In this document: positions 20,317 to 64,000 of the stretch, piece by piece
Position numbering within the stretch: the first letter of the stretch is position 1
Layout: each line of letters begins with the position of its first letter
Source of the DNA: Persicaria tinctoria
Taxonomy: Eukaryota > Streptophyta > Magnoliopsida > Caryophyllales > Polygonaceae
Assembly: GCA_037127255.1 (NCBI GenBank)
Contig: JBANSL010000009.1
Coordinates: 31,747,475 to 31,811,474 of the forward strand
Reading direction: 5' to 3'
Length of the DNA stretch: 64,000 nucleotides
The notes under the pieces: generated by a model
The model's database searches: none
The model's input: the letters and a program-made list of their open reading frames with translations, nothing else
Told to the model about the DNA's origin: nothing
Made by a program: the position numbers and the translations under genes

Positions 20317-20319
20317 AAT

Positions 20320-37425: not shown

Positions 37426-38163
37426 CTAGATCACCTTCATGACAATGTATGACCCTTCCCAGTTGGCATCAAGTTTTCCTCCGGTTGATTTTTGCCGGAG
37501 CACTAGGTCACCTTTTTGGAACTGTCGCGGATGGACTTTCTTGTCACGATATCTGGATAAACGCCTCTTGTACACTTGTTCTTTAAATGCTGCCACCATC
37601 CGACGTTCTTCCATGAGATGTATTTTAAGTTCCAGAGCTTCGTCGTTTGTCTCCTGGTTGTATGCAAAGATTCGTGCTGACGGGACCAATCTCTCAACCG
37701 GTAAGACCGCGTCTGTCCAATAAACAAAAGTGAAAGGGGTTTCTCCGGTTGGAGTTTTTGCTGAGGTCCTGTAAGACCAGAGAACTAAAGGTAAAAGCTC
37801 TGCCCAACGTCCCTTCGCTATGTCCCCTAGCTTTTTTTGTATTCCGTGTAGTAACTGCCGGTTGGTCGTTTCCGCTTGTCCATTTTTCTGAGGATAGGCC
37901 ACGGATGAGAACTTGAGGTTGCTGCCAAGGCCTACGCAAAAGTCACTGATGGATTCGCAATCAAACTGTGGGCTGTGATCCGTGATTATTGAGTCTGGCA
38001 CCCCAAATCGGCACACCATGTTCTTCCACAAAAACCTCCTCACTTTTTCCTCGGTGATGAGCCCCATGGCTTCAACTTCTACCCACTTTGTGAAGTAGTC
38101 CACCAAGACAAACACATACTTAAACTGCTCCGGGGCAGTTGGAAATGGTCCTAGAATGTCCAT
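37426..38163 (-). pseudogene. Integrase core of a Tat-like gypsy element
   Basis: The open 245-codon segment carries the DDE triad: Asp2 in MDILGPF, Asp62 in SIITDHSPQF and Glu98 in PQKNGQAETTN, with 35 residues between the last two as in retroviral-type integrases. HPRQFQKGDLVLR and the C-terminal WEGSYIVMKV follow. The domain inserts element cDNA into the nuclear genome. It begins after a TGA that replaces a Trp/Gly codon before MDILG, and no promoter or intact polyprotein is present, so this is a remnant. The flanking frame continues into zinc-binding and RNase H parts. Confidence 0.9.
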
Positions 38164-38971: not shown

Positions 38972-40244
38972 CTTTAGCATCTCACCAAAAACATGATCCT
39001 TAACCTGGAATCAAATGTCACCAAATATATGATCCTTAACCTGAAATCAAAGGAAGCAAATGTGCTCAACTTTTAACTAAAAAATTCAACTTGTATTAGA
39101 AAATGGCAAGCCTTACAAAATATATAGGAGAAAATTGTTGCCTCTTAAGTGTTTACGAACGATGTGGGACATTTTTTGATAGAAAAACAAAGGAAAAATC
39201 TACGAGTCTAGATCACATCATCCTCCCTTCCTTTGAACAAGATCAGTCCTCGAATCTTGCGTTGCCCTCCGAAAAATACGATACACCTCTGTACGTTAGA
39301 TCTGCGTAAGGTATCGATGGTTGGTCTCGCAAAAGCTCTCGAATCCATAAGGCTCTTCCAAATGGTACATTACGCCCCTGTACGTTGGATCTGCGTAATG
39401 CACTTAAATGGTTGGTCTTGCACAAAACTCCAATGGATGGTGGTGGATGCTTGTGAGAATAACACAGAAAGATTGAGGAACCCTACTCGAAAGCTCTGAT
39501 ACCACTTGATGTGCTTGGGAACTCTCTGAGCCGCCAGGATCGACGACGAGGTTCCTCCTTGATTTGAAGAGATGAACTTTCTACTAGTAACCGAATATGT
39601 ATGGTAAAATTCGCAGGCCTCTCACCCTTGAACCTCCTACACTCGATCTCAATCCTCTCGGAATCGCACTCTAAGGATCTCGACCCTTCGACACCTTCGC
39701 CTCTCACTAGGGTGTCTCCCTCGACATCTCACCAAAGGGTTTTGTTTTTAGCATCTCACCAAAAACATTATCCATAACCTGGAATCAAAGAAAGCAAATG
39801 TGCTCAACTTTTAACTCAAAAATTCAACTTGTATTAGAAAATGGCAAGCCTTATAAAATATATAGGAGAAAATTGTTGCCTCTTAAGTGTTTACGACCGA
39901 TGTGGGACCATTTTTGATAGAAAAACAAAGGAAAAATCTATGAGTCTAGATCACATCATCCTCCCCTCCTTTGAAAATGATTCGTCCTCGAATCTTGCGT
40001 TGCCCTCCGAAAAATACGATACACCCCTGTACGTTGGATCTGCGTGAGGTATCGATGGTTGGTCTCGCAAATGCTCTCGAATCCATATGGCTATTCCAAA
40101 TGGTACATTACGCCCCTATATGTTGGATCTGCGTAGTGCACTTCAATGGTTGGTCTTGCACAAAACTCCAACGGATGGTTGTGGATGCGTGTGAGAACAA
40201 CACAGAAAGATTGAGGAACCCTAGTCGGAAGCTCTGATACCACT

Positions 40245-40696
40245 TGATGTGCTCAGGAACTCTCCAAGACGCCAGGATCGACGACGAGGTTCCTCCTTTA
40301 TTTGAAGAGATGAACTTTCTACTAGTAAACGAATATGTTTGGCAAAATTCGCAGGTCTCTCACCATTGAACCTCCCACACTCGATCTCAATCCTCTCGGA
40401 ATCGCACTCTGAGGATCTTGACCCTTCGACACCTTCGCCTCTCACTAGGGTGTCTCCCTCGGCATCTCACCAAAAAGTTTGGTTTTTAGCATGTCACGAA
40501 AAACATGATCCTTAACCTGGAATCAAATGAATCAAATGTGCTCAACTTTTAACTAAAAAATTCAACTTGTATTAGAAAATGGCAAGCCTTACAAAATATA
40601 TAGGAGAAAATGGTTGCCTCTTAAGTGTTTACGACCGATGTGGGACATTTTTTAATAGAAAAACAAAGGAAAAATCTATGAGTCTAGATCACATCA
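40245..40696 (-). mobile_element. Representative 452-bp LTR of the array
   Basis: On the minus strand it opens TGATGTGATCTAG and closes GAGCACATCA, so TGATGTG and CACATCA form 7-bp inverted ends. A TATA box (TATATA, 40597-40602) lies about 95 bp in, and TCCCACATCGG lies between the LTR start and that box. This is the layout of a short U3 followed by R-U5. The 488-bp form has one extra 36-bp block near the end of U5. Confidence 0.85.
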
Positions 40697-40982
40697 TCCT
40701 CCCCTCCTTTGAAAAAGATTCGTCCTCGAATCTTGCGTTGCCCTCCGAAAAATATGATACACCCCTGTACGTTGGATCTGCATAAGGTATCGATGGTTGG
40801 TCTCGCAAAAGCTCTCGAATCCATAAGGCTATTCCAAATGGTACATTACGCCCCTGTACGTTGGATCTGTGTAATGCACTTCAATGGTTGGTCTTGCACA
40901 AAACTCCAACGGATGGTTGTGGATGCTTGTGAGAACAACACAGAAAGATTGAGGAACCCTAGCCGGAAGCTCTGATACCACT
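40697..40982 (-). mobile_element. Representative 286-bp internal segment of the array
   Basis: It runs from the primer site at its right end to a polypurine tract (AAAGGAGGGGAGGA on the minus strand, 40697-40710) touching the next LTR. Between them are two related sub-blocks about 89 bp apart (ACCAACC-T-GA and CAACGTACAGGGG). The sequence just before the polypurine tract resembles the extreme 3' end of a gypsy polyprotein (FEDESFSKEG / SRTNLFQRR, depending on frame). No capacity to encode an enzyme. Confidence 0.8.
40969..40980 (-). other. Primer binding site, initiator tRNA-Met
   Basis: The minus strand reads TGGTATCAGAGC, two bases after the LTR end. This is the standard plant tRNA-iMet primer site. 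It recurs at the same position in most units of the array. Confidence 0.9.
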
Positions 40983-41270
40983 TGATGTGCTCGTGAACTC
41001 TCCGAGCCGCCAGGATCGACGATGAGGTTCCTCCTTTATTTGAAGAGATGAACTTTCTACTAGTAATCGGATATGTATGGGAAAATTCGCAGGCCCACTA
41101 CAACATTTCTTTACATAAGGTAACACTAAATATGTAACATATTCTAAAATTGTTACCTATTTGGTCTATTGTAACATTTTCTAACCCAATTATAAAGTGT
41201 TACAATTTTTTGGACAAAGGTAACATTTTTATACAACCTTGTAACTGTTTTTTAATTGTAACACACCATT

Positions 41271-42570
41271 GACTAAGAAAATCCTAGAGAGAAGGGCTCT
41301 CCCTTCTCTCTAGGCTTGTCTAAACTTTTGCCCCAAATTTCATCTTGCAATCCCTAATTCTACTCACCCATCATTGTCCAACCTACTGCAATCGACCCTG
41401 GCTTGTCTCTATTTCCCATCTAAACACAAAATCCCAGTCTCACCTCCTTCAATCCTCCTCCCGGCAATAGCTGATTTGGCGTACTTCTGTCGATTGGTTC
41501 GATGCCCTCCGGTCTATCCCCATCTCTAAGTCGAGTCGTCCTCCGATGCCGGTACCCTCCTCGTCTTGGGCTCCTGGCATCGGACTCCCTCCTCCCCATT
41601 TCTAGCCTACCCCATTTCTTAATCCCCATCGTCGATCTCCTTCCTGTCAAATTCGCCTTCCCCGCTGGTGGTTAGCCCCTTTGATGGCTCCCCAAAGTCG
41701 ATCACCTCTCTCTTTCTGGTTACCCTTTGTCCTAATCTTTGATGTTCAACCGACGCGTTTTCCCCCTCCTCGACGTTCCTCGCCTCGGGGTTCGGTGGCC
41801 ATCCGTCGTCCTTGTCTTCGTCATGTCTCTGGCCGCTTTGCCCATCTTGCTCCTTGGGCCCGAAGGTGGCCCGTGGAGGTTGCTTATGGGCCTAATCTTC
41901 TTCCTTTGGGCCCAAGGTCTTTTCTTGGGCCCAAAGGAGCCCGAGGATTATTATATATTTAAATTTTGGATATTATATATTTATTTATATAATTTCCTTA
42001 TTTTTATATATATTTATGAATATTGTCCCGAAAGGGTTTTGAGTAAAACCACCCGAAATGGTTTGAGAAAATCCCGCAAGGGCTTGTCGATATTTTTGTA
42101 GGTGAAAGCTTGTTGGCGTTTTATTCGAGTAGTTTGCGGCTCTGCTTCCGGTGTTTCGAGGAGATCTTCTGCTTGGTTGGGGGGCGTGGAGTCTGTAGTC
42201 GGGTCTGGCTGGGGTCGAGGTGGTGCGCTCAGGGCGTCTCCGTATTCGGGATAGAGTTTCCTTGGAGTCCGTCTGCACTACCCACAGGAGTTAGTGTCCT
42301 GCTGTACTACTGGCCCGCGGTGCTGCTGTTCGGTGGTGCTTGGCTGCGTTCTTCGTCGGCTTCCTCAGCTGTTCGGGTGTTGGGTCTTCTTGGGACATTG
42401 TGTTGTAGAGTTTATTTCTGCTTGTTTCATTTCACTTATTATTTGTATTTCTGGTTTTAGGTTGCTTTGTTAGACGGTTCGCCGTCTGCCAACTTCGGTC
42501 GGCCTCTCGATGAGTCAGGCCTGTCTGACCATCGAATTTTTACCTAAAAAAAAAAAAAAAAAAAAAAAAA
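41271..42570 (+). mobile_element. Poly(A)-tailed retroposon inside the CACTA element
   Basis: It ends in a run of 26 A (42546-42571, the last A shared with the duplication). ATTGTAACACAC-c/t-ATT flanks it at 41255-41270 and 42571-42586, a 16-bp duplication with one mismatch. Poly(A) plus a long variable TSD is the mark of LINE-driven insertion. The roughly 1.3-kb body has no recognisable protein: either a heavily deleted LINE or a retroposed transcript. The duplication overlaps the CACTA subterminal motif, which lowers certainty a little. Confidence 0.65.
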
Positions 42571-43004
42571 ATTGTAACACACTATTTGAAACAAATGTAA
42601 CGCCTTTTTTATTTTTTTTAAAAAGAAATAAAATAAGAATGGTTTCCTTTTACCAAGCCACACCCCTAACCCCTTTCCTCATCTGTTTTCAGATCTAGAT
42701 CTGATATCTCTCTCTCACATGGCCGTCTTCTCATCCCCTTAATTTCTCGCCTCTCCAGTCTCCACTCGTTCTCTCATTCTCCCTCTCTCGCCGGCGGCAT
42801 CCTCCACTAAACCGGCAATCTCTTCGCATCCCCAGGTGACCTCTGTTCTTGCTTCTCCTGTCAACGGCTTCTTCGACTGTTCTCAACACTTTTGCCCCTT
42901 CCTTTAGGCTCTCTCAACTCCAGCGTCTATGGCTTCTCCGGCACCCCTCCTCTCTGGTGTTCCCGTTGCTGGTACTACTCTCTTGTAGCTACTCTTCTTG
43001 ATTT

Positions 43005-43155
43005 AGTGTTAAAACTAATTTGGGGTTCTTGATTTAGGGTTAAAATTAGTTTCGGGTTTAGGATTTCGGGTTGGTTTAGGGTTCTTAATTTAGGGTTCAA
43101 ATTGGTTTAGGGTTCTTAATTTCGGGTTCAAATTGGTTTAAGGTTCTTGATTTCT
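43005..43155 (+). repeat. Degenerate short tandem repeat (TTCTTGATTTAGGGTT-like)
   Basis: About five imperfect units of roughly 30 bp with TTTAGGGTTC and AAATTGGTTT, within the CACTA interior. Confidence 0.7.
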
Positions 43156-45581
43156 AAATGCTAATATGAGTTGACAGTTGACACATATAACCAAACTTGT
43201 CTAGTTTTAGTGAATTGGTGCTTGACAATGTTATGCTAAATGATGTGAAAAATATAAGCTAGTACGTTATTTTACATGATTTCTTAATTAGGATATGATT
43301 TTTTGGCTTATCAATATTTCATTCGGATCTAATTCATGTGTACTTAATATTTAAAGTTGAAATTAGGGCTTTGTGGAGTTGAAGAAGTAATTTGTGTAAT
43401 TAAGACTACTTTGCATTTTAGTTATCTGATTAAAATTAAAATTAATTGGTTCATTCTCAAATTCTTTTTTCTCAACTATCCTTCTTCGAATTCCATCATT
43501 GTTAAAGTTAACTAGTGATCTGCCTTGTAGCTTTAAATCGTTCGCTATGTGTAACACTACTCAGTCTTTTTTTATTTATATGACTACTGTGATATAGGTG
43601 TTCCATCACTCTTGCTGATAAATAATACACAAGGTTGATTTTTTTTAATCCTTTCCTTACTCTTTTTGTCCCATGTAATTTGCTTCTGATTTGCATGTAT
43701 ACGAGTCTAAAGTGAAATCTGATTTGTGTCATGTATACAAGTCAAAGTAGAAATCTTTTTTCTGTCATGTGTTGGAGTCACAGGCAAAATATGATTTCTG
43801 TCATATAGCTATGTTATATGTCCTTTGTTATGCTATTTAATAGCTGATTTTTGGTCTTTTGCTATGCTGTTACTACTAGGGTCGATTAGCTACTCGTTTT
43901 AACTCATGATTGGGATGTGTTGTATGAGGCTACGTTTGAGGATCCTCTAGAAGATATTGACGTATGCAAGGACTTCTCCAATAAACCTATTTGGATAGTT
44001 TGTCTGGAATATGTTTCCTGAATTATTATGAGGCAAGTCGACGTTGCTCTTGGTGTTAGTAATTATATGTTAATTGGGAATTTGGGATATGGTTTCACGT
44101 AGACTTTATTTTTATTTAGTGGCTTGTGCTTTTTTATTTATTTTAATGAATATGTTTTTTTTTTCCAGGCTCATTGCTATTGAGTTTTACCAACCAATGC
44201 CCTTGAATAGATGCCAAGTGGAGCAAAAATTGCAACTATTTCCCATGGGGAAATGAAGGCAAGTGTCCCATTATACACTTTTTTGAGATAAATGATTTGG
44301 AATGAAGCTTTTTAGTATAAATGAACCTAAAGATGTTGCAATCGATCTTTTAAAGTAGAACTACAATTCTGATTTACTGGCTCGTCAAATTTCTAAAATA
44401 TGTCATACAAGTAGCTTTCTGCGATGCTGTGCTTTTTATTGTTATTGATTTTTGCTTTGTGTCCTTGATTTTTTTTTGGTGAACTTTTGATGTAGAGAGT
44501 GATCATAGATGCATAGTAGTAACCACATAATTAGTAAAAGTCCAAACTATATTTATTTTGTTTGTAGCAGCCAGGTAATTAGTGATCCTAAATGCTTCTA
44601 TTCTAACGCCAGTTTATTCGTAATTTTATCAAGGATCATTGGCATTTAAACCTTATATAAATAATGGTTATTTTTTTTCTGAAAAACAAATGAATTAGTA
44701 ATGCAATGGCTATTTTTACTGAAGTACCCATGTTCTTTTTTATTGTAAAACCATTCATAACTTAAAAAGGCATTTTCAGCTTCAAAACCTTCTGTAAATG
44801 GGTGGCAGATTTTAGAGATCTTAACATATAGGCAGTTGTATGGAAAATAAAAATGGAATGAATGATAATCTTATAAAAACTAATGAATTGAGAATGTTTT
44901 CTTTTCATAAAAAATTATGGACTGATATTCTTTTAACAAAGAGAATATAATTTAGATTTTAGAAAACTATGACAGAACCACTAAATTAGGATTTTATAGA
45001 ATTATGATAAAACAAAAGACTTAGTTCGGATTTTATAGAATTATGGAGTGGTGTTCTTATAGAGAATTCAAATTTATCAGAACAAAATTTTGATTTAGAA
45101 GTCAGAATTAGAGACAAACAATAGTATTTAGAATTCAGATGAAAAAATAAATTACAAATTTCATAATTCGCATAAGGAATTGAGAATAAATATATAGGGA
45201 ATTCTGGGAAAAAATATAATTAATCATAAATTGATAAAACTAATTGCTTCATGATGTTTTTTTTTTCCAGCAAAGCACTGAAGTGTGAGTACCTACAGAG
45301 TTAACATTGACCCGATAAGGTTTACAAGAATGGGATAGTTGAAGTCTCCTATACCATTTATGAGGTAGGGTAGGGGGAGAGTATTTTTGCTTATTTGCCT
45401 CATTTGACAAGATCTGTTGACTCATAAATTAATAATTAGATGAAGAGATTATGCCTGCTGTTAAGTCAAGGAGCTTAACATATATTGCCTTTATCAAGGA
45501 GGTTGATTTTAAAGAGTAAAGTACACCACATACCAAACAAAAAGTTGATTGTTTTTTCATGTAATTACCCTCCTTTGACCC

Positions 45582-45830
45582 ATGATTCCTGTAATCAAAT
45601 ATGTACAGGATTTTGATCATTACAAGTCGGGCGGCTACAAGCACGTGATGGTGATGCTGACTTGGAGGACATGTTGTGAAGCTCAGCTTGAGGAACTTCA
45701 AATGCTTCAGAAGTTTATTGGGTATGTTGTGAAGCTCATAGAATGGGGAATTTCAAATGGTGAGAAGATTATTGTTAGATCCGAGGTACAAGGCCATTTA
45801 CGCCTAAAAAGCATGTTTTGTAATAGTTGA
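45582..45830 (+). other. Unrecognised ORF in the CACTA interior
   Basis: An 82-codon frame with no domain I know. It contains an imperfect duplication (GTTGTGAAGCTCA..TTCAAATG occurs twice about 55 bp apart). It may be a captured exon or chance. I cannot support a function. Confidence 0.2.
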
Positions 45831-46285
45831 GATTAAGATCAACAATGTTCTTTAAAAGTAACATTATTATTTGGATGTAAAATATTATATAACACAATTA
45901 TTTATATATATATATATACATATCTAATTGTAACAAATTTAATTGAAATGTAATAGTTGAAATTAAGAGTAACATTATTCTTTAAATGTAACACTATTAT
46001 TTGGATGTAACATATTTGGTTAAAGGTAACAAATTCTATTAAGGTAACATTTATTCTAAAATGTAACATTTAACTCAAAAGTAATAGTTTTGGTATCAAA
46101 TGTAACACTTAGTATCATGAATGAAACAATGTTACATTAGCTCATAAAAACTGTTACATTAGATCAAAGGCAACGACAGCAAATGTAATCCATAAAAAAT
46201 GTTACATTTGCCCTAATGTAACAAATTTAAGGGATAATGTAATACTTTTAGGTGATACATTAGGTGTTTATATGTAGTAGTGACC

Positions 46286-49200
46286 TCTCACCCTTGAACC
46301 TCCCACACACGATCTCAATCCTCTCGGAATCGCACTATAAGGATCTCGACCCTTCGACACCTTCGCCTCTCACTAGGGTGTCTCCCTCGGCATCTCAGCA
46401 AAGGGTTTTGTTTTTAGCATCTCACTAAAAACATGATCCTTAACCTGGAATCAAATTTCACCAAAAACACGATCCTTAACCTGGAATCAAAGGAAGCAAA
46501 TGTGCTCAACTTTTAACTCAAAAATTCAACTTGTATTAGAAAATGGCAAGCCTTACAAAATATATAGGAGAAAATTGTTGCATCTTAAGTGTTTACGACC
46601 GATGTGGGACATTTTTTGATGGAAAAACAAAGGAAAAATCTATGAGTCTAGATCACATCATCCTACCCTCCTTTGAAAAATATTCGTCCTCGAATCTTGC
46701 GTTGCCCTCCGAAAAATACGATACACCCCTGTACGTTGGTTCTGCGTAAGGTATCGATGGTTGGTCTCGCAAAAGCTCTCGAATCCATAAGGCTCTTCCA
46801 AATGGTACATTACGCCCCTGTACGTTGGATATGCGTAATGCACTTAAATGGTTGGTCTTGCACAAAACTCCAACGGATGGTTGTGGATGCTTGTGAGAAT
46901 AACACAGAAAGATTGAGGAACCCTACTCGAAAGCTCTGATACCACTTGATGTGCTCGGGAACTCTCCGAGCCGCCAGGATCGACGATGAGGTTCCTCCTT
47001 TATTTGAAGAGATGAACTTTCTACTAGTAACCGAATATGTATGGCAAAATTCGCAGGCCTCTCACCCTTGAACTTCCTACACTCGATCTCAATCCTCTCG
47101 GAATCGCACTCTAAGGATCTCGACCCTTCCACACCTTCGCCTCTCACTAGTGTGTCTCCCTCAACATCTCACCAAAGGGTTTTGTTTTTAGCATCTAACC
47201 AAAAACATTATCCATAACCTGGAATCAAAGAAAGCAAATGTGCTCAACTTTTAACTCAAAAATTCAACTTGTATTAGAAAATGGCAAGCCTTACAAAATA
47301 TATAGGAGAAAATGGTTGCCTCTTAAGTGTTTACGACCGATGTGGGACATTTTTTAATAGAAAAACAAAGGAAAAATCTATGAGTCTAGATCACATCATC
47401 CTCCCCTCCTTTGAAAAAGATTCGTCCTCGAATCTTGCGTTGCCCTCTGAAAAATACGATACACCCATGTACGTTGGTTCTGCATAAGGTATCGATGGTT
47501 GGTCTCGCAAAAGCTCTCGAATCCATAAGGCTATTCCAAATGGTACATTACGCCCCTGTACGTTGGATCTGTGTAATGCACTTCAATGGTTGGTCTTGCA
47601 CAAAACTCCAACGGATGGTTGTGGATGCTTGTGAGAACAACACAGAAAGATTGAGGAACCCTAGCCGGAAGCTCTGATACCACTTGATGTGCTCGGGAAC
47701 TCTCCGAGCCACCAGGATCGACGATGAGGTTCCTCCTTTATTTGAAGAGATGAACTTTCTACTAGTAATCGGATATGTGTGGCAAAATTCGCAGGCCTCT
47801 CACCCTTGAACCTCCCACACTCGATCTCAATCCTCTCGGAATCGCACTATAAGGATCTCGACCCTTCGACACCTTCGCCTCTCACTAGGGTGTCTCCCTC
47901 GGCATCTCAGCAAAGGGTTTTGTTTTTAGCATCTCACTAAAAACATGATCCTTAACCTGGAATCAAATCTCACCAAAAACACGATCCTTAACCAGGAATC
48001 AAAGGAAGAAAATGTGCTCAACTTTTAACTCAAAAATTCAACTTGTATTAGAAAATGGCAAGCCTTACAAAATATATAGGAGAAAATTGTTGCATCTTAA
48101 GTGTTTACGACCGATGTGGGACATTTTTTGATGGAAAAACAAAGGAAAAATCTATGAGTCTAGATCACATCATCCTACCCTCCTTTGAAAAAGATTCGTC
48201 CTCGAATCTTGCATTGCCCTCCGAAAAATACCATACACCCATGTACGTTGGATCTGCGTAAGGTATCGATGGTTGGTCTCGCAAAAGCTCTCGAATCCAT
48301 AAGGCTCTTCCAAATGGTACATTACGCCCCTGTACGTTGGATCTGCGTAATGCACTTAAATGGTTGGTCTTGCACAAAACTCCAACGGATGGTTGTGGAT
48401 GCTTGTGAGAACAACACAGAAAGATTGAGGAACCCTAGCCGGAAGCTCTGATACCACTTGATGTGCTCGGGAACTCTCCAAGCCGCCAGGATCGACGACG
48501 AGGTTCCTCCTTTATTTGAAGAGATGAACTTTCTACTAGTAAACGAATATGTTTGGCAAAATTCGCAGGCCTCTCACCATTGAACCTCCCACACTCGATC
48601 TCCATCCTCTCGGAATCGCACTCTGAGGATCTCGACCCTTCGACACCTTCGCCTCTCACTAGGGTGTCTCCCTCGGCATCTCACCAAAAAGTTTGGTTTT
48701 TAGCATGTCACGAAAAACATGATCCTTAACCTGGAATCAAAAGAATCAAATGTGCTCAACTTTTAACTAAAAAATTCAACTTGTATTAGAAAATGGCAAG
48801 CCTTACAAAATATATAGGAGAAAATGGTTGCCTCTTAAGTGTTTACGACCGATGTGGGACATTTTTTGATAGAAAAACATAGGAAAAATCTATGAATCTA
48901 GATCACATCATCCTCCCCTCCTTTGAAAAAGATTCGTCCTCGAATCTTCCGTTGCCCTCCGAAAAATACGATACACCCCTGTACGTTGGATCTGCGTAAG
49001 GTATCGATGGTTGGTCTCGCAAAAGCTCTCGAATCCATTAGGCTATTCCAAATGGTACATTACGCCCCTGTACGTTGAATCTGTGTAATGCACTTCAATG
49101 GTTGGTCTTGCACAAAACTCCAACGAATGGTTGTGGATGCTTGTGAGAACAACACAGCAAGATTGAGGAACCCTAGCCGGAAGCTCTGATACCACTTGAT

Positions 49201-52200
49201 GTGCTCGGGAACTCTCCAAGCCGCCAGGATCGACGACGAGGTTCCACCTTTATTTGAAGAGATGAACTTTTTACTAGTAAACGAATATGTTTGGCAAAAT
49301 TCGCAGGCCTCTCACCATTGAACCTCCCACACTCGATCTCCATCCTCTCGGAATCACACTCTGAGGATCTCGACCCTTCGACACCTTCGCCTCTCACTAG
49401 GGTGTCTCCCTCGGCATCTCACCAAAAAGTTTGGTTTTTAGCATGTCACGAAAAACATGATCCTTAACCTGGAATCAAATCTCACCAAAAACATGATCCT
49501 TAACCTGAAATCAAAGGAAGCAAATGTGCTCAACTTTTAACTCAAAAATTCAACTTGTATTAGAAAATGGCAAGCCTTACAAAATATGTAGGAGACAATT
49601 GTTGCCTCTTAAGTGTTTACGACCCATGTGGGACATTTTTTGATGGAAAAACTAAGGAAAAATCTATGAGTCTAGATCAAATCATCCTACCCTCCTTTGA
49701 AAAAGATTCGTCCTCGAATCTTGCGTTGCCCTCCGAAAAATACGATACACCCGTGTACGTTGGTTCTGCGTAAGGTATCGATGGTTGGTCTCGCAAAAGC
49801 TCTCGAATCCATAAGGCTCTTCCAAATGGTACATTACGCCCCTGTACGTTGGATCTGCGTAATGCACTTAAATGGTTGGTCTTGCACAAAACTCCAACGG
49901 ATGGTTGTGGATGCTTGTGAGAACAACACAGAAAGATTGAGGAACCCTAGCCGGAAGCTCTGATACCACTTGATGTGCTCGGGAACTCTCCGAGCCGCCA
50001 GGATCGACGATGAGGTTCCTCCTTTATTTGAAGAGATGAACTTTCTACTAGTAATCGGATATGTATGGCAAAATTCGCATGCCTCTCACCCTTGAACCTC
50101 CCACACTCGATCTCAATCCTCTCGGAATCGCACTACAAGGATCTCGACCCTTCGACATCTTCGCCTCTCACTAGGGTGTCTCCCTCGGCATCTCAGCAAA
50201 GGGTTTTGTTTTTAGCATCTCACTAAAAACATGATCCTTAACATGGAATCAAATCTCACCAAAAACATGATCCTTAACCTGAAATCAAAGGGAGCAAATG
50301 TGCTCAACTTTTAACTCAAAAATTCAACTTGTATTAGAAAATGGCAAGCCTTACAAAATATATAGGAGAAAATTGTTGCCTCTTAAGTGTTTACGACCGA
50401 TGTGGGACATTTTTTGATGGAAAAACAAAGGAAACATCTATGAGTCTAGATCACATAATCCTCCCCTCCTTTGAAAAAGATTCGTCCTCGAATCTTGCAT
50501 TGCCCTCCGAAAAATACGATACACCCCTGTACGTTGGTTCTGCGTAAGGTATCGATGGTTGGTCTCGCAAAAGCTCTCGAATCCATAAGGCTATTCCAAA
50601 TGGTACATTACGCCCCTGTACGATGGATCTGTGTAATGCACTTCAATGGTTGGTCTTGCACAAAACTCCAACGGATGGTTGTGGATGCTTGTGAGAACAA
50701 CACAGAAAGATTGAGGAACCCTAGCCGGAAGCTCTGATACCACTTGATGTGCTCGGGAACTCTCCGGGCCGCCGGGATCGACGATGAGGTTCCTCCTTTA
50801 TTTGAAAAGATGAACTTTCTACTAGTAATCGGATATGTATGGCAAAATTCGCAGGCCTCTCACCTTTGAACCTCCCACACTCGATCTCAATCCTCTCGGA
50901 ATCGCACTAAAAGGATCTCGACCCTTCGACACCTTCGCCTCTCACTAGGGTGTCTCCCTCGACATCTCAGCAAAGGGTTTTGTTTTTAGCATCTCACTAA
51001 AAACATGATCCTTAACCTGGAATCAAATCTCACCAAAAACATGATCCTTAACCTGGAATCAAAGGAAGCAAATGTGCTCAACTTTTAACTCAAAAATTCA
51101 ACTTGTATTAGAAAATGGCAAGCCTTACAAAATATATAGGAGAAAATTGTTGCCTCTTAAGTGTTTACGACCGATGTGGGACATTTTTTGATGGAAAAAC
51201 AAAGGAAAAATCTATGAGTCTAGATCACATAATCCTCCCCTCCTTTGAAAAAGATTCGTCCTCGAATCTTGCGTTGCCCTCCGAAAAATACGATACACCC
51301 CTGTACGTTGGTTCTGCGTAAGGTATCGATGGTTGGTCTCGCAAAAGCTCTCGAATCCATAAGGCTATTCCAAATGGTACATTACGCCCCTGTACGCTGG
51401 ATCTGTGTAATGCACTTCAATGGTTGGTCTTGCACAAAACTCCAACGGATGGTTGTGGATGATTATGAGAACAACACAGAAAGATTGAGGAACCCTAGCC
51501 GGAAGCTCTGATACCACTTGATGTGCTCGGGAACTCTCCGAGCCGCCAGGATCGACGATGAGGTTCCTCCTTTATTTGAAGAGATGAACTTTCTACTAGT
51601 AATCGGATATGTATGGCAAAATTCGCAGGCCTCTCACCCTTGACCCTCCCACACTCGATCTCAATCCTCTCGGAATCGCACTAAAAGGATCTCGACCCTT
51701 CGACACCTTCGCCTCTCACTAGGGTGTCTCCCTTGGCATCTCAGCAAAGGGTTTTGTTTTTAGCATCTCACTAAAAACATGATCCTTAACCTGGAATCAA
51801 ATCTCACCAAAAACATGATCCTTAACCTGGAATCAAAGGAAGCAAATGTGCTCAACTTTTAACTCAAAAATTCAACTTGTATTAGAAAATGGCAAGCCTT
51901 AAAAAATATATAGGAGAAAATTGTTGCCTCTTAAGTGTTTACGACCGATGTGGGACATTTTTTGATGGAAAAACAAAGGAAAAATCTATGAGTCTAGATC
52001 ACATAATCCTCCCCTCCTTTGAAAAAGATTCGTCCTCGAATCTTGCGTTGCCCTCCGAAAAATACGATACACCCCTGTACGTTGGTTCTGCGTAAGGTAT
52101 CGATGGTTGGTCTCGCAAAAGCTCTCGAATCCATAAGGCTATTCCAAATGGTACATTACGCCCCTGTACGTTGGATTTGCGTAAATGCACTTCAATGGTT

Positions 52201-55200
52201 GGTCTTGCACAAAACTCCAACGGATGGTTGTGGATGCTTGTGAGAACAACAAAAAAAGATTGAGGAACCCTAGCCGGAAGCTCTGATACCACTTGATGTG
52301 CTCGGGAACTCTCCGAGCCGCCAGGATCGACGATGAGGTTCCTCCTTTATTTGAAGAGATGAACTTTCTACTAGTAATCGGATATGTATGGCAAAATTCG
52401 CAGGCCTCTCACCCTTGAACCTCCCACACTCGATCTCAATCCTCTCGGAATCGCACTAAAAGGATCTCGACCCTTCGACACGTTCGCCTCTCACTAAGGT
52501 GTCTCCCTCGGCATCTCAGCAAAGGGTTTTTTTTTTAGCATCTCACTAAAAACATGATCCTTAACCTGGAATCAAATCTCACCAAAAACATGATCCTTAA
52601 CCTGGAATCAAAGGAAGCAAATGTGCTCAACTTTTAACTCAAAAATTCAACTTGTACTAAAAAATGGCAAGCCTTACAAAATATATAGGAGAAAATTGCT
52701 GCCTCTTAAGTGTTTACGACCGATGTGGGACATTTTTTGATGGAAAAACAAAGGAAAAATCTATGAGTCTAGATCACATCATCCTACCCTCCTTTGAAAA
52801 AGATTCGTCCTCGAATCTTGCGTTGCCCTCCGAAAAATACGATACACCCCTGTACGTTGGTTCTGCATAAGGTATCGATGGTTGATCTCGCAAAAGCTCT
52901 CGAATCCATAAGGCTATTCCAAATGGTACATTACGCCCCTGTACGTTGGATCTGTGTAATGCACTTCAATGGTTGGTCTTGCACAAAACTCCAACATATG
53001 GTTGCGGATGCTTGTGAGAACAACACAGAAAGATTGAGGAACCCTAGCCGGAAGCTCTGATACCACTTGATGTGCTCGGGAACTCTCCGAGCCGCCAGGA
53101 TCGACGATGAGGTTCCTCCTTTATTTGAAGAGATGAACTTTCTACTAGTAATCGGATATGTATGGCAAAATTCGCAGGCCTCTCACCCTTGAACCTCCCA
53201 CACTCGATCTCAATCCTCTCGGAATCGCACGAAAAGGATCTCGACCCTTCGACACCTTCGCCTCTCACTAGGGTGTCTCCCTCGGCATCTCAGCAAAGGA
53301 TTTTGTTTTTAGCATCTCACTAAAAACATGATCCTTAACCTGGAATCAAATCTCACCAAAAACATGATCCTTAACCTGGAATCAAAGGAAGCAAATGTGC
53401 TCAACTTTTAACTCAAAAATTCAACTTGTATTAGAAAATGGCAAGCCTTACAAAATATATAGGAGAAAATTGTTGCCTCTTAAGTGTTTACAACCGATGT
53501 GGGACATTTTTTGATGGAAAAACAAAGGAAAAATCTATGAGTCTAGATCACATAATCCTCCCCTCCTTTGAAAAAGATTCGTCCTTGAATCTTGCGTTGC
53601 CCTCCGAAAAATACGATACACCCCTGTACGTTGGTTCTGCGTAAGGTATCGATGGTTGGTCTCGCAAAAGCTCTCGAATCCATAAGTCTATTCCAAATGG
53701 TACATTACGCCCCTGTACGTTGGATCTGTGTAATGCACTTCAATGGTTGGTCTTGCACAAAACTACAACGGATGGTTGTGGATGCTTGTGAGAACAACAC
53801 AGAAAGATTGAGGAACCCTAGCCGGAAGCTCTGATACCACTTGATGTGCTCGGGAACTCTCCGAGCCGCCAGGATCGACGATGAGGTTCCTCCTTTATTT
53901 GAAGAGATGAACTTTCTACTAGTAATCGTGTATGTATGGCAAAATTCGCAGGCCTCTCACCCTTGAACCTCCCACACTCGATCTCAATCCTCTCGGAATC
54001 GCACTAAAAGGATCTCGACCCTTCGACACCTTCGCCTCTCACTAGGGTGTCTCCCTTGGCATCTCAGCAAAGGGTTTTGTTTTTAGCATCTCACTAAAAA
54101 CATAATCCTTAACCTCGAATCAAATCTCACCAAAAACATGATCCTTAACCTGGAATCAAAGGAAGCAAATGTGCTCAACTTTTAACTCAAAAATTCAACT
54201 TGTATTAGAAAATGGCAAGCCTTAAAAAATATATAGGAGAAAATTGTTGCCTCTTAAGTGTTTACGACCGATGTGGGACATTTTTTGATGGAAAAACAAA
54301 GGAAAAATCTATGAGTCTAGATCACATAATCCTCCCCTTCTTTGAAAAAGATTCGTCCTCGAATCTTGCGTTGCCCTCCGAAAAATACGATACACGCCTG
54401 TACGTTGGTTCTGCGTAAGGTATCGATGGTTGGTCTCGCAAAAGCTCTCGAATCCATAAGGCTATTCCAAATGGTACATTACGCCCCTGTACGTTGGATC
54501 TGTGTAATGCACTTCAATGGTTGGTCTTGCACAAAACTCCAACGGATGGTTGTGGATGCTTGTGAGAACAACACAGAAAGATTGAGGAACCCTAGCCGGA
54601 AGTTCTGGTACCACTTGATGTGCTCGGGAACTCTCCGAGCCGCCAGGATCGACGATGAGGTTCCTCCTTTATTTGAAGAGATGAACTTTCTACTAGTAAT
54701 CGGATATGTATGGCAAAATTCGCAGGCCTCTCACCCTTGAACCTCCCACACTCGATCTCAATCCTCTCGGAATCTCACCAAAAGGATCTCGACCCTTCGA
54801 CACCTTCGCCTCTCACTAGGGTGTCTCCCTTGGCATCTCAACAAAGGGTTTTGTTTTTAGCATCTCACTAAAAACATGATCCTTAACCTGGAATCAAATC
54901 TCACCAAAAACATGATCCTTAACCTGGAATCAAAGGAAGCAAATGTGCTCAACTTTTAACTCAAAAATTCAACTTGTATTAGAAAATGGCAAGCCTTAAA
55001 AAATATATAGGAGAAAATTGCTGCCTCTTAAGTGTTTACGACCGATGTGGGACATTTTTTGATGGAAAGACAAAGGAAAAATCTATGAGTCTAGATAACA
55101 TCATCCTACCCTCCTTTGAAAAAGATTCGTCCTCGAATCTTGCGTTGCCCTCCGAAAAATACGATACACCCCTGTACGTTGGTTCTGCGTAAGGTATCGA

Positions 55201-58200
55201 TGGTTGGTCTCGCAAAAGCTCTCGAATCCATAAGGCTATTCCAAATGGTACATTACGCCCCTGTACGTTGGATCTGTGTAATGCACTTCAATGGTTGGTC
55301 CTGCACAAAACTCCAACGGATGGTTGTGGATCCTTGTGAGAACAACACAGAAAGATTGAGGAACCCTAGCAGGAAGCTCTGATACCACTTGATGTGCTCG
55401 GGAACTCTCCGAGCCGCCAGGATTGACGACGAGGTTCCTCCTTTTTTTGAAGAGATGAACTTTCTACTACTAACCGGATATGTATGGCAAAATTCGCAGG
55501 CCTCTCACCCTTGAACCTAACACACTCGATCTCAATCCTCTCGGAATCCCACTCTAAGGATCTCTACCCTTCGACACCTTCACCTATCACTAGGGTGTCT
55601 CCCTCGGCATCTCAGTAAAGGGTTTTGTTTTTGGCATCTCACCAAAAACATGATCCTTAACCTGGAATCAAATCTCACCAAAAACATGATCCTTAACCTG
55701 GAATCAAAGGAAGCAAATGTGCTCAACTTTTAACTCAAAAATTCAACTTGTACTAGAAAATGGCAAGCCTTACAAAATATATGGGAGAAAATTGTTGCCT
55801 CTTAAGTGTTTACGACCGATGTGGGACATTTTTTGATGGAAAAACAAAGGAAAAATCTATGAGTCTAGATCACATAATCCTCCCCTTCTTTGAAAAAGAT
55901 TCGTCCTCGAATCTTGCGTTGCCCTCCGAAAAATACGATACACGCCTGTACGTTGGTTCTGCGTAAGGTATCGATGGTTGGTCTCGCAAAAGCTCTCGAA
56001 TCCATAAGGCTATTCCAAATGGTACATTACGCCCCTGTACGTTGGATCTGTGTAATGCACTTCAATGGTTGGTCTTGCACAAAACTCCAACGGATGGTTG
56101 TGGATGCTTGTGAGAACAACACAGAAAGATTGAGGAACCCTAGCCGGAAGTTCTGGTACCACTTGATGTGCTCGGGAACTCTCCGAGCCGCCAGGATCGA
56201 CGATGAGGTTCCTCCTTTATTTGAAGAGATGAACTTTCTACTAGTAATCGGATATGTATGGCAAAATTCGCAGGCCTCTCACCCTTGAACCTCCCACACT
56301 CGATCTCAATCCTCTCGGAATCTCACCAAAAGGATCTCGACCCTTCGACACCTTCGCCTCTCACTAGGGTGTCTCCCTTGGCATCTCAACAAAGGGTTTT
56401 GTTTTTAGCATCTCACTAAAAACATGATCCTTAACCTGGAATCAAATCTCACCAAAAACATGATCCTTAACCTGGAATCAAAGGAAGCAAATGTGCTCAA
56501 CTTTTAACTCAAAAATTCAACTTGTATTAGAAAATGGCAAGCCTTAAAAAATATATAGTAGAAAATTGCTGCCTCTTAAGTGTTTACGACCGATGTGGGA
56601 CATTTTTTGATGGAAAAACAAAGGAAAAATCTATGAGTCTAGATAACATCATCCTACCCTCCTTTGAAAAAGATTCGTCCTCGAATCTTGCGTTGCCCTC
56701 CGAAAAATACGATACACCCCTGTACGTTGGTTCTGCGTAAGGTATCGATGGTTGGTCTCGCAAAAGCTCTCGAATCCATAAGGCTATTCCAAATGGTACA
56801 TTACGCCCCTGTACGTTGGATCTGTGTAATGCACTTCAATGGTTGGTCCTGCACAAAACTCCAACGGATGGTTGTGGATCCTTGTGAGAACAACACAGAA
56901 AGATTGAGGAACCCTAGCAGGAAGCTCTGATACCACTTGATGTGCTCGGGAACTCTCCGAGCCGCCAGGATTGACGACGAGGTTCCTCCTTTTTTTGAAG
57001 AGATGAACTTTCTACTACTAACCGGATATGTATGGCAAAATTCGCAGGCCTCTCACCCTTGAACCTAACACACTCGATCTCAATCCTCTCGGAATCCCAC
57101 TCTAAGGATCTCTACCCTTCGACACCTTCGCCTATCACTAGGGTGTCTCCCTCGGCATCTCAGTAAAGGGTTTTGTTTTTAGCATCTCACCAAAAACATG
57201 ATCCTTAACCTGGAATCAAATCTCACCAAAAACATGATCCTTAACCTGGAATCAAAGGAAGCAAATGTGCTCAACTTTTAACTCAAAAATTCAACTTGTA
57301 CTAGAAAATGGCAAGCCTTACAAAATATATGGGAGAAAATTGTTGCCTCTTAAGTGTTTACGACCGATGTGGGACATTTTTTGATGGAAAAACAAAGGAA
57401 AAATCTATGAGTCTAGATCACATCATCCTCCCCTGCTTTGAAAAAGATTCGTCCTCGAATCTTGCGTTGCCCTCCGAAAAATACGATACACCCCTGTACG
57501 TTGGTTCTGCGTAAGGTATCGATGGTTGGTCTCGCAAAAGCTCTCGAATCCATAAGGCTATTCCAAATGGTACATTACGCCCCTGTACGTTGGATCTGTG
57601 TAAAGCACTTCAATGGTTGGTCTTGCACAAAACTCCAACGGATGGTTGTGGATGCTTGTGAGAACAACACAGAAAGATTGAGGAACCCTAGCCGGAAGCT
57701 CTGATACCACTTGATGTGCTCGGGAACTCTCCGAGCCGCCAGGATCGACGATGAGGTTCCTCCTTTATTTGAAGAGATGAACTTTCTACTAGTAATCGGA
57801 TATGTATGGCAAAATTCGCAGGCCTCTCACCCTTGAACCTCCCACACTCGATCTCAATCCTCTCGGAATCGCACTAAAAGGATCTCGACCCTTCGGCACC
57901 TTCGCCTCTCACTAGGGTGTCTCCCTTGGCATCTCAGCAAAGGGTTTTGTTTTTAGCATCTCACTAAAAACATAATCCATAACCTGGAATCAAATCTCAC
58001 CAAAAACATGATCCTTAACCTGGAATCAAAGGAAGCAAATGTGCTCAACTTTTAACTCAAAAATTCAACTTGTATTAGAAAATGGCAAGCCTTAAAAAAT
58101 ATATGGGAGAAAATTGTTGCCTCTTAAGTGTTTACGACCGATGTGGGACATTTTTTGATGGAAAAACAAAGGAAAACTCTATGAGTCTAGATCACATAAT

Positions 58201-61200
58201 CCTCCCCTCCTTTGAAAAAGATTCGTCCTCGAATCTTGCGTTGCCCTCCGAAAAATACGATACACGCCTGTACGTTGGTTCTACGTAAGGTATCGATGGT
58301 TGGTCTCGCAAAAGCTCTCGAATCCATAAGGCTTTTCCAAATGGTACATTACGCCCCTGTACGTTGGATCTGTGTAATGCACTTCAATGGTTGGTCTTGC
58401 ACAAAACTCCAACGGATGGTTGTGGATGCTTGTGAGAACAACACAGAAAGATTGAGGAACCCTAGCCGGAAGCTCTGGTACCACTTGATGTGCTCGGGAA
58501 CTCTCCGAGCCGCCAGGATCGACGATGAGGTTCCTCCTTTATTTGAAGAGATGAACTTTCTACTAGTAATCGGATATGTATGGCAAAATTCGCAGGCCTC
58601 TCACCCTTGAACCTCCCACACTCGATCTCAATCCTCTCGGAATCTCACCAAAAGGATCTCGACCCTTCGACACCTTCGCCTCTCACTAGGGTGTCTCCCT
58701 TGGCATCTCAACAAAGGGTTTTGTTTTTAGCATCTCACTAAAAACATGATCCTTAACCTGGAATCAAATCTCACCAAAAACATGATCCTTAACCTGGAAT
58801 CAAAGGAAGCAAATGTGCTCAACTTTTAACTCAAAAATTCAACTTGTATTAGAAAATGGCAAGCCTTAAAAAATATATAGGAGAAAATTGCTGCCTCTTA
58901 AGTGTTTACGACCGATGTGGGACATTTTTTGATGGAAAAACAAAGGAAAAATCTATGAGTCTAGATAACATCATCCTACCCTCCTTTGAAAAAGATTCGT
59001 CCTCGAATCTTGCGTTGCCCTCCGAAAAATACGATACACCCCTGTACGTTGGTTCTGCGTAAGGTATCGATGGTTGGTCTCGCAAAAGCTCTCGAATCCA
59101 TAAGGCTATTCCAAATGGTACATTACGCCCCTGTACGTTGGATCTGTGTAATGCACTTCAATGGTTGGTCCTGCACAAAACTCCAACGGATGGTTGTGGA
59201 TCCTTGTGAGAACAACACAGAAAGATTGAGGAACCCTAGCAGGAAGCTCTGATACCACTTGATGTGCTCGGGAACTCTCCGAGCCGCCAGGATTGACGAC
59301 GAGGTTCCTCCTTTTTTTGAAGAGATGAACTTTCTACTACTAACCGGATATGTATGGCAAAATTCGCAGGCCTCTCACCCTTGAACCTAACACACTCGAT
59401 CTCAATCCTCTCGGAATCCCACTCTAAGGATCTCTACCCTTCGACACCTTCGCCTATCACTAGGGTGTCTCCCTCGGCATCTCAGTAAAGGGTTTTGTTT
59501 TTAGCATCTCACCAAAAACATGATCCTTAACCTGGAATCAAATCTCACCAAAAACATGATCCTTAACCTGGAATCAAAGGAAGCAAATGTGCTCAACTTT
59601 TAACTCAAAAATTCAACTTGTACTAGAAAATGGCAAGCCTTACAAAATATATGGGAGAAAATTGTTGCCTCTTAAGTGTTTACGACCGATGTGGGACATT
59701 TTTTGATGGAAAAACAAAGGAAAAATCTATGAGTCTAGATCACATCATCCTCCCCTGCTTTGAAAAAGATTCGTCCTCGAATCTTGCGTTGCCCTCCGAA
59801 AAATACGATACACCCCTGTACGTTGGTTCTGCGTAAGGTATCGATGGTTGGTCTCGCAAAAGCTCTCGAATCCATAAGGCTATTCCAAATGGTACATTAC
59901 GCCCCTGTACGTTGGATCTGTGTAAAGCACTTCAATGGTTGGTCTTGCACAAAACTCCAACGGATGGTTGTGGATGCTTGTGAGAACAACACAGAAAGAT
60001 TGAGGAACCCTAGCCGGAAGCTCTGATACCACTTGATGTGCTCGGGAACTCTCCGAGCCGCCAGGATCGACGATGAGGTTCCTCCTTTATTTGAAGAGAT
60101 GAACTTTCTACTAGTAATCGGATATGTATGGCAAAATTCGCAGGCCTCTCACCCTTGAACCTCCCACACTCGATCTCAATCCTCTCGGAATCGCACTAAA
60201 AGGATCTCGACCCTTCGACACCTTCGCCTCTCACTAGGGTGTCTCCCTTGGCATCTCAGCAAAGGGTTTTGTTTTTAGCATCTCACTAAAAACATAATCC
60301 ATAACCTGGAATCAAATCTCACCAAAAACATGATCCTTAACCTGGAATCAAAGGAAGCAAATGTGCTCAACTTTTAACTCAAAAATTCAACTTGTATTAG
60401 AAAATGGCAAGCCTTAAAAAATATATGGGAGAAAATTGTTGCCTCTTAAGTGTTTACGACCGATGTGGGACATTTTTTGATGGAAAAACAAAGGAAAACT
60501 CTATGAGTCTAGATCACATAATCCTCCCCTCCTTTGAAAAAGATTCGTCCTCGAATCTTGCGTTGCCCTCCGAAAAATACGATACACGCCTGTACGTTGG
60601 TTCTGCGTAAGGTATCGATGGTTGGTCTCGCAAAAGCTCTCGAATCCATAAGGCTTTTCCAAATGGTACATTACGCCCCTGTACGTTGGATCTGTGTAAT
60701 GCACTTCAATGGTTGGTCTTGCACAAAACTCCAACGGATGGTTGTGGATGCTTGTGAGAACAACACAGAAAGATTGAGGAACCCTAGCCGGAAGCTCTGG
60801 TACCACTTGATGTGCTCGGGAACTCTCCGAGCCGCCAGGATCGACGATGAGGTTCCTCCTTTATTTGAAGAGATGAACTTTCTACTAGTAATCGGATATG
60901 TATGGCAAAATTCGCAGGCCTCTCACCCTTGAACCTCCCACACTCGATCTCAATCCTCTCGGAATCTCACCAAAAGGATCTCGACCCTTCGACACCTTCG
61001 CCTCTCACTAGGGTGTCTCCCTTGGCATCTCAACAAAGGGTTTTGTTTTTAGCATCTCACTAAAAACATGATCCTTAACCTGGAATCAAATCTCACCAAA
61101 AACATGATCCTTAACCTGGAATCAAAGGAAGCAAATGTGCTCAACTTTTAACTCAAAAATTCAACTTGTATTAGAAAATGGCAAGCCTTAAAAAATATAT

Positions 61201-64000
61201 AGGAGAAAATTGCTGCCTCTTAAGTGTTTACGACCGATGTGGGACATTTTTTGATGGAAAAACAAAGGAAAAATCTATGAGTCTAGATAACATCATCCTA
61301 CCCTCCTTTGAAAAAGATTCGTCCTCGAATCTTGCGTTGCCCTCCGAAAAATACGATACACCCCTGTACGTTGGTTCTGCGTAAGGTATCGATGGTTGGT
61401 CTCGCAAAAGCTCTCGAATCCATAAGGCTATTCCAAATGGTACATTACGCCCCTGTACGTTGGATCTGTGTAATGCACTTCAATGGTTGGTCCTGCACAA
61501 AACTCCAACGGATGGTTGTGGATCCTTGTGAGAACAACACAGAAAGATTGAGGAACCCTAGCAGGAAGCTCTGATACCACTTGATGTGCTCGGGAACTCT
61601 CCGAGCCGCCAGGATTGACGACGAGGTTCCTCCTTTTTTTGAAGAGATGAACTTTCTACTACTAACCCGATATGTATGGCAAAATTCGCAGGCCTCTCAC
61701 CCTTGAACCTAACACACTCGATCTCAATCCTCTCGGAATCCCACTCTAAGGATCTCTACCCTTCGACACCTTCGCCTATCACTAGGGTGTCTCCCTCGGC
61801 CTCTCAGTAAAGGGTTTACTTTTTAGCATCTCACCAAAAACATGATCCTTAACCTGGAATCAAATCTCACCAAAAACATGATCCTTAACCTGGAATCAAA
61901 GGAAGCAAATGTGCTCAACTTTTAACTCAAAAATTCAACTTGTACTAGAAAATGGCAAGCCTTACAAAATATATGGGAGAAAATTGATGCCTCTTAAGTG
62001 TTTACGACCGATGTGGGACATTTTTTGATGGAAAAACAAAGGAAAAATCTATGAGTCTAGATAACATCATCCTCCCCTGCTTTGAAAAAGATTCGTCCTC
62101 GAATCTTGCGTTGCCCTCCGAAAAATACGATACACCCCTGTACCTTGGTTCTGCGTAAGGTATCGATGGTTGGTCTCGCAAAAGCTCTCGAATCCATAAG
62201 GCTATTCCAAATGGTACATTACGCCCCTGTACGTTGGATCTGTGTAATGCACTTCAATGGTTGGTCTTGCACAAAACTCCAACGGATGGTTGTGGATGCT
62301 TGTGAGAACAACACAGAAAGATTGAGGAACCCTAGCCGGAAGCTCTGATACCACTTGATGTGCTCGGGAACTCTCCGAGCCGCCAGGATCGACGATGAGG
62401 TTCCTCCTTTATTTGAAGAGATGAACTTTCTACTAGTAATCGGATATGTATGGCAAAATTCGCAGGCCTCTCACCCTTGAACCTCCCACACTCGATCTCA
62501 ATCCTCTCGGAATCGCACTAAAAGGATCTCGACCCTTCGACACCTTCGCCTCTCACTAGGGTGTCTCCCTTGGCATCTCAGCAAAGGGTTTTGTTTTTAG
62601 CATCTCACTAAAAACATAATCCTTAACCTGGAATCAAATCTCACCAAAAACATGATCCTTAACCTGGAATCAAAGGAAGCAAATGTGCTCAACTTTTAAC
62701 TCAAAAATTCAACTTGTATTAGAAAATGGCAAGCCTTAAAAAATATATGGGAGAAAATTGTTGCCTCTTAAGTGTTTACGACCGATGTGGGACATTTTTT
62801 GATGGAAAAACAAAGGAAAACTCTATGAGTCTAGATCACATAATCCTCCCCTCCTTTGAAAAAGATTCATCCTCGAATCTTGCGTTGCCCTCCGAAAAAT
62901 ACGATACACGCCTGTACGTTGGTTCTGCGTAAGGTATCGATGGTTGGTCTCGCAAAAGCTCTCGAATCCATAAGGCTATTCCAAATGGTACATTACGCCC
63001 CTGTACGTTGGATCTGTGTAATGCACTTCAATGGTTGGTCCTGCACAAAACTCCAACGGATGGTTGTGGATCCTTGTGAGAACAACACAGAAAGATTGAG
63101 GAACCCTAGCAGGAAGCTCTGATACCACTTGATGTGCTCGGGAACTCTCCGAGCCGCCAGGATTGACGACGAGGTTCCTCCTTTTTTTGAAGAGATGAAC
63201 TTTCTACTACTAACCGGATATGTATGGCAAAATTCGCAGGCCTCTCACCCTTGAACCTAACACACTCGATCTCAATCCTCTCGGAATCCCACTCTAAGGA
63301 TCTCTACCCTTCGACACCTTCGCCTATCACTAGGGTGTCTCCCTCGGCCTCTCAGTAAAGGGTTTTGTTTTTAGCATCTCACCAAAAACATGATCCTTAA
63401 CCTGGAATCAAATCTCACCAAAAACATGATCCTTAACCTGGAATCAAAGGAAGCAAATGTGCTCAACTTTTAACTCAAAAATTCAACTTGTACTAGAAAA
63501 TGGCAAGCCTTACAAAATATATGGGAGAAAATTGTTGCCTCTTAAGTGTTTACGACCGATGTGGGACATTTTTTGATGGAAAAACAAAGGAAAAATCTAT
63601 GAGTCTAGATAACATCATCCTCCCCTGCTTTGAAAAAGATTCGTCCTCGAATCTTGCGTTGCCCTCCGAAAAATACGATACACCCCTGTACCTTGGTTCT
63701 GCGTAAGGTATCGATGGTTGGTCTCGCAAAAGCTCTCGAATCCATAAGGCTATTCCAAATGGTACATTACGCCCCTGTACGTTGGATCTGTGTAATGCAC
63801 TTCAATGGTTGGTCTTGCACAAAACTCCAACGGATGGTTGTGGATGCTTGTGAGAACAACACAGAAAGATTGAGGTACCCTAGCCGGAAGCTCTGATACC
63901 ACTTGATGTGCTCGGGAACTCTCCGAGCCGCCAGGATCGACGATGAGGTTCCTCCTTTATTTGAAGAGATGAACTTTCTACTAGTAATCGGATATGTATG
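46286..64000 (-). repeat. Tandem LTR-internal array, right segment, continues past the window
   Basis: The split LTR ends at 46660. Later LTR right ends fall at 47398, 48172, 48910, 49684, 50458, 51232, 52006, 52781, 53555 and then every 774 bp to 63617; the last LTR begins at 63904 and runs off the window. Every internal segment is about 286 bp. LTRs are 452 or 488 bp. All units point the same way, with no other sequence between them. Short open frames of 68 and 88 codons recur in every unit on the plus strand, antisense to the element, and are by-products. Confidence 0.95.
56938..57425 (-). mobile_element. Representative 488-bp LTR of the array
   Basis: Same ends as the 452-bp form, plus a 36-bp direct duplication (CTCACYAAAAACATGATCC.. 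twice). The next internal segment is 57426-57711, with the primer site at 57698-57709. Confidence 0.85.

Follow-up and report, generated by a model that had tools for sequence, protein, structure and literature searches.

A satellite-like tandem array of a miniature, gene-less retrotransposon-type unit with a higher-order core in Persicaria tinctoria

The DNA analyzed here is a 64,000-nt stretch of the Persicaria tinctoria genome (contig JBANSL010000009.1, positions 31,747,475 to 31,811,474 of the forward strand; hereafter the window). Its right-hand part is a head-to-tail array of short units, each composed of a long terminal repeat (LTR) and an internal region (INT), with the layout of a terminal-repeat retrotransposon in miniature (TRIM). 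Our analysis indicates that a gene-less TRIM probably turned into a tandem run and was then copied as satellite DNA with a higher-order core.

Organization of the array

The array contains 25 complete LTR-INT units (u01 to u25) plus a partial unit at each end. Read along the minus strand, every unit consists of an LTR, AG, a tRNA-iMet-type primer-binding site (PBS), internal region and polypurine tract (PPT), followed by the next LTR. The whole array, its left edge and one example of each component are as follows.

38973..64000, minus strand (retroelement orientation): whole TRIM-like LTR-INT array, insert included; runs on past the window edge
38973..39220, minus strand: left edge, an internally truncated LTR adjoining a broken retrotransposon pol
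39507..39958, minus strand: LTR, 452-bp form (u01)
47685..48172, minus strand: LTR, 488-bp form with a 36-bp internal tandem duplication (u05)
39959..40244, minus strand: internal region, 286 bp
39493..39504, minus strand: PBS, TGGTATCAGAGC, separated from the end of the LTR by AG (2 nt)
39959..39972, minus strand: PPT (AAAGGAGGGGAGGA on the minus strand), touching the LTR

A search for the junction string AGCTCTGATACCACTTGATGTG on the plus strand, with up to four substitutions tolerated, located 26 PBS/LTR junctions (starts 39492-63889) in a single orientation. The unit period was 738 or 774 bp, and 775 bp once, so that the head-to-tail 738/774-bp units described in a first-pass annotation, made from the sequence alone, were recovered. 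Without the insert in u03 and its 3 extra bases, the array spanned 19,838 bp; this length is a lower bound because the array exits the window at 64000, and it agrees with the earlier estimate of about 20 kb and continuing. Both LTR ends were identified in 25 units. Four LTRs were 452 bp long (u01, u02, u04 and u06), 20 were 488 bp long and one (u03) was split by the insert; the 36-bp difference is a tandem duplication within the LTR. The internal region was 286 bp in length, and only that of u10 measured 287 bp.

The start of the array at 38973 falls within an LTR, not at an LTR end. The adjoining pol carries an integrase domain at 37426-38163 on the minus strand, and an RNase H-like stretch, read by eye beside the edge, presumably belongs to a gypsy element. 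Because neither the array nor the pol element has a proper end at this point, we read the left edge as a recombination or truncation junction. When the unit was compared with the 5.2-kb insert and with the 38,960 bp that precede the array, the only matches (22 and 14 bp, E 0.34) were at chance level.

Retroelement signals

The exact PBS, which we take to match the 3' end of tRNA-iMet, was present at 22 of the 26 junctions and was not found on the other strand of the window. The minus-strand LTR terminates in CACATCA, followed by AG and then the PBS, and the purine tract adjoins TGATGTG or a damaged form of it. The PPT equaled the consensus in 11 of 25 copies and contained at least 12 purines in 14 positions in all 25, and the placement of AG, primer site and PPT beside the LTR in the first-pass annotation was correct. 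A TATA-like string and AATAAA lie within the LTR on the same strand as the other signals. The 12-nt PBS is identical to that given for Cassandra elements (PMC7215508; here and below, cited papers are represented by parts of their text).

To gauge chance, the 774-bp consensus was dinucleotide-shuffled 20,000 times. The full layout required a CA no more than 5 nt from the opening 8 nt of the PBS, inverted ends matching exactly over 7 bp and a purine tract of at least 13/14; none of the shuffles had it, the signature having been set after the unit had been seen. The exact 12-nt PBS alone was likewise found in 0 of 20,000 shuffles, and the 8-nt PBS beside CA alone in 68. The shuffling bears on an alternative that had been named at the outset, in which the unit is an ordinary satellite and its PBS- and PPT-like motifs are coincidental. 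Such a satellite would suit signals that are no more conserved than the remainder of the unit, as well as the lack of any target-site duplication (TSD) or dispersed copy in the window; however, the shuffle counts and the same-strand TATA-like string and AATAAA in the LTR argue against it, and we consider it very unlikely.

A two-LTR element assembled from these parts (LTR 452/488 bp, INT 286 bp) would measure 1,190 or 1,262 bp. We applied the TRIM size and protein criteria as in PMC4717578; shorter limits, typically <540 bp, appear in PMC4528315. Of four array open reading frames (ORFs) of at least 130 aa, the one scanned had no Pfam match. The predicted RNA structure of the internal region was no better than that of shuffles (z -0.86; 38/200 folded at least as well). 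At its end, the internal region may conceivably retain part of a Ty3/gypsy polyprotein tail. PBS-LTR junction strings were absent from the viral contigs and the bacterial and archaeal genome contigs searched, as expected for plant DNA. The TRIM-type origin of the unit is well supported, because the full layout did not arise in shuffles, and falls short of proof, because the LTR is cut at the left edge and neither a TSD nor a dispersed copy was seen in the window.

Higher-order register and layered divergence

Pairwise identity among the 25 units averaged 96.3% (range 93.9-100%) and was unevenly distributed along the array, in which three regions were distinguished.

53842..63903, minus strand: higher-order region u13-u25, a 2,322-bp trimer with unit types C A B A B C A B C A B C B
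56164..61581, minus strand: most homogeneous block; compared over 3,096 bp at a shift of 2,322 bp, u16-u19 and u19-u22 show 3 mismatches
39507..49970, minus strand: diverged flank u01-u07, 738/774-bp units mixed, best partner 96.1-97.8%

Types A, B and C were assigned from u13 onward on the basis of shared variants and the identity matrix. Identity within types was 99.7-100% (A), 98.2-100% (B) and 98.5-99.7% (C), and between types 95.6-98.5% overall (A-B, 95.6-96.4%; B-C, 95.6-96.9%; A-C, 97.4-98.5%). Two pairs of units, u17/u20 and u19/u22, are identical, and the difference between adjacent units within u14-u25 is 2.2-4.4%. At a three-unit shift, tracts of 1,336 and 1,062 bp matched exactly, as did one of 775 bp at a two-unit shift; the ends of these tracts are fixed by the next mismatch and do not locate exchange points. 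When the unit order was permuted, the observed lag-3 similarity was matched in 10 (u07-u25), 148 (u11-u25) and 181 (u13-u25) of 20,000 permutations, over ranges picked once the matrix had been seen. What supports a two-unit register is a local match between u14-u15 and u16-u17. With 25 units and a lag-3 register, the array combines a long head-to-tail run with multi-unit homogenization, as a satellite with higher-order repeats does.

Best-partner identity was 99.0-100% in u14-u25 versus 96.1-97.8% in u01-u07, and the number of private changes per unit was 5-15 in u01-u07, 3-15 across u01-u13 and 0-4 in u14-u25. Because of its lower best-partner identity, more numerous private changes and mixed 738/774-bp lengths, the flank u01-u07 looks older than the core. 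A homogenized core with a diverged edge is the pattern of a satellite under unequal exchange.

The visible growth of the array was most likely by DNA exchange, not retrotransposition, because the C-A-B register at 2,322 bp carries signal-damaged variants along. Alternatively, the array might have been inserted whole as a retrotransposition concatemer, through template switching, read-through RNA or copying of a one-LTR circle, and have changed little since. Cassandra transcripts of two to five units (PMC7215508) and the discussion of one-LTR circles as templates (PMC11899658) lend this some plausibility, and a left edge without an LTR end would suit an illegitimately inserted circle or concatemer. 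However, such an insertion predicts roughly equal divergence among units, whereas the divergence we observed was layered, spanned 0 to 6% and followed a block register, within which signal-damaged variants recur. A concatemer could account for the birth of the array but not for its present form, and as an explanation of the whole we regard it as improbable.

An assembly error that enlarged or reordered a shorter tandem TRIM cluster was also considered. Arrays of near-identical units are error-prone, and the two identical pairs are of the kind that such an error could produce; against this, u01-u13 carry 3-15 private changes each and one unit has a unique insert. We give this explanation very little weight.

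Signal decay

The first-pass annotation described the LTR ends as TGATGTG/CACATCA and all cis signals as kept. CACATCA was indeed intact in all 25 units, but TGATGTG in only 9 of 25; the terminal TG was kept in 16 and lost in nine (u08, u09, u10, u12, u13, u15, u18, u21 and u24). The PBS was altered in 4/25 units, the 9-base TATA-like string in 10/25 and the AATAAA-like string in 6/25. Only 9/25 units combined two intact 7-bp LTR ends with the PBS and a PPT-like tract, which contradicts the claim that all signals were kept.

Variable positions made up 12/57 of the signals and 146/717 of the rest of the unit (Fisher p 0.87), and the retrotransposition signals are now without visible selection. 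An LTR end lacking TG should hinder integration; since this variant is found in nine units, the terminal-TG defect spread through copying. Relative to the majority base, differences of the C-to-T type affected 20/60 CG, 10/33 CHG and 29/246 CHH positions; both CG (Fisher p 0.0001) and CHG (0.013) exceeded CHH. A methylated plant repeat would be expected to show this context bias.

Proposed history of the array

The anatomy, array, block structure and signal decay are seen in the window, and we infer that a retrotransposition founded the array, that a first duplication followed and that copying went by unequal exchange. The starting point would have been a non-autonomous TRIM-type LTR retrotransposon (LTR, PBS, about 260 bp, PPT, LTR) with no recognized genes. 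A tandem LTR-INT-LTR run may then have formed in repeat-rich plant DNA, either by unequal exchange between LTRs or from an integrated one-LTR circle or concatemer. Later copying as satellite DNA would have proceeded by exchange between misaligned arrays, which would add two- and three-unit blocks and homogenize the core into the C-A-B higher-order repeat while the flank stayed diverged. Units with damaged ends or PBS would have been amplified together with intact ones, because the signals are without visible selection.

Several points weigh against this history. The PBS match is only 12 nt long. Type C is the least sharply defined, its loosest pair being as similar (98.5%) as the closest A-C pair. 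Lag-2 similarity was not clearly above permutation (904, 4,453 and 5,792 of 20,000 for u07-u25, u11-u25 and u13-u25, respectively). The left edge shows neither a TSD nor an LTR end, the right edge lies beyond the window, and no dispersed copy of the unit was found in a search that covered the 64-kb window. The block structure could also come from replication-based or rolling-circle amplification with reinsertion, and the apparent unit order is that of the assembled contig.

A broader scenario, which we consider doubtful, is that the whole TRIM unit is a chromosome-scale satellite in this plant (at least hundreds of units, possibly pericentromeric), evolving by higher-order amplification. Satellites with higher-order repeats typically form abundant arrays, mostly in heterochromatin or at centromeres. 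Many LTRs would keep the TATA-like box and PBS, and array transcripts or small RNAs would, if this were true, act on the dispersed parent family.

Insert in u03 and neighboring repeats

41096..46282, no strand assigned: CACTA-like insert interrupting the u03 LTR; ends CACTACAACAT / CACTACTACAT

The insert of approximately 5.2 kb has CACTAC-type inverted ends and is flanked by the triplets GCC and ACC, which are alike at two of three bases. The earlier picture, a long array of satellite type that is built of TRIM-like LTR-INT units and carries a CACTA-type insert, is supported. Since u03 is the sole complete unit that holds the insert, it most likely arrived after the last duplication of u03. 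Within it, a stretch of approximately 1.3 kb (41254-42582) ends in 26 A and has AATTGTAACACAC on each side (starts 41254 and 42570); it resembles a poly(A) retroposon bounded by a 13-bp TSD. The insert also contains a degenerate tandem motif rich in TTTAGGGTT (42995-43154), which we take to resemble the plant telomere repeat.

Elsewhere in the window, two 1,944-bp direct repeats (18373-20316 and 25280-27223) are 99.1% identical and are likely the LTRs of a young element spanning 18373-27223; a gag match lies just inside the repeat at 20358-21002. This element is nested between older repeats at 14619-16536 and 33083-34901. A neighboring gag ORF had four protein relatives at E <=0.001; the best showed 88% identity over 61%, and a Juglans regia protein showed 38% identity over 34%. 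Because of these relatives, the window reads as plant-like in its sequence. Downstream of the integrase lies a stretch of approximately 355 bp resembling a miniature inverted-repeat transposable element, with inverted ends CTAACTCCAATG (36881-37235). An 80-bp tandem repeat (8.5 copies, 88% matches) occupies 36195-36874, downstream of the integrase end of the minus-strand pol. Tandem repeats at the 3' end have been reported for Tat-lineage elements (PMC7004042), and such repeats are another route from retrotransposons to satellites.

Comparison with known systems

Among 43 plant genomes, 35 contained tandemly arrayed TRIMs (TA-TRIMs), which make up 129 subfamilies (PMC4717578). As in the present array, LTR and internal region alternate and coding capacity is lacking; however, the examples given are of the L3I2 and L5I4 type, some drawn with TSDs, whereas in the present array 26 internal regions are complete, one edge is truncated and the units form higher-order blocks. 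In maize, the TRIM Wukong also forms tandem multi-LTR structures, attributed to recombination, and contains nested transposable element insertions; it differs in having at most seven LTRs and 215 genome members, of which most intact and solo ones have 5-bp TSDs (PMC4528315).

For Cassandra, arrays of at least 12 units have been published (PMC7215508). These long arrays, the three-unit register and the truncated left edge were missed in the first-pass annotation. Cassandra shares with the present array the long LTR-INT arrangement, the same 12-nt PBS and the mention of incomplete terminal units, but its LTRs hold a 5S sequence that was not found here (PMC7215508). We rejected membership in Cassandra: the window had no Rfam match at gathering scores, u05-u06 had no 5S match to E 10, and the Cassandra boxes A and C were matched no better than in LTRs after shuffling (1,000 shuffles; shares 0.50 and 1.00, pair 0.51). 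According to the same paper, ectopic exchange should make copies differ, and no such differences were seen in Cassandra arrays, whereas the differences in the present array form a three-unit register (PMC7215508).

Tandem LTR retrotransposons of rice and other plants likewise share internal LTRs, and theirs are polymorphic in unit number; the 28 selected rice tandems contain protein domains, and the two loci detailed have two internal regions and at most three LTRs (PMC11899658). Complex insertion and illegitimate recombination were both left possible for them. The Ogre-derived satellites of Lathyrus sativus also represent satellite DNA from retrotransposon sequence, but their source was a set of short tandem repeats within the 3' untranslated region, whereas the present array grew from a whole LTR-INT unit (PMC7004042). 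Vaccinium satellites were discarded as a match, as neither "774" nor "738" occurs in the consulted text of PMC7290377. In the main texts of the open-licence literature examined, as far as these were covered, we found no TRIM array with more than 12 internal regions and none with a higher-order register.

Whether tandem LTR arrays originate by concatemer insertion or by DNA recombination was left undecided in PMC7215508 and PMC11899658. The private and shared mutations of the present array allow its register to be read and thus speak to this question for one locus, where the growth that left a readable trace most likely took place in DNA, with the retroelement signals as decaying bystanders. 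The array is an intermediate between a mobile element and a satellite. Its kind is already known and mostly explained by known processes; within the literature examined, what this locus adds is the length of the array and its layering.
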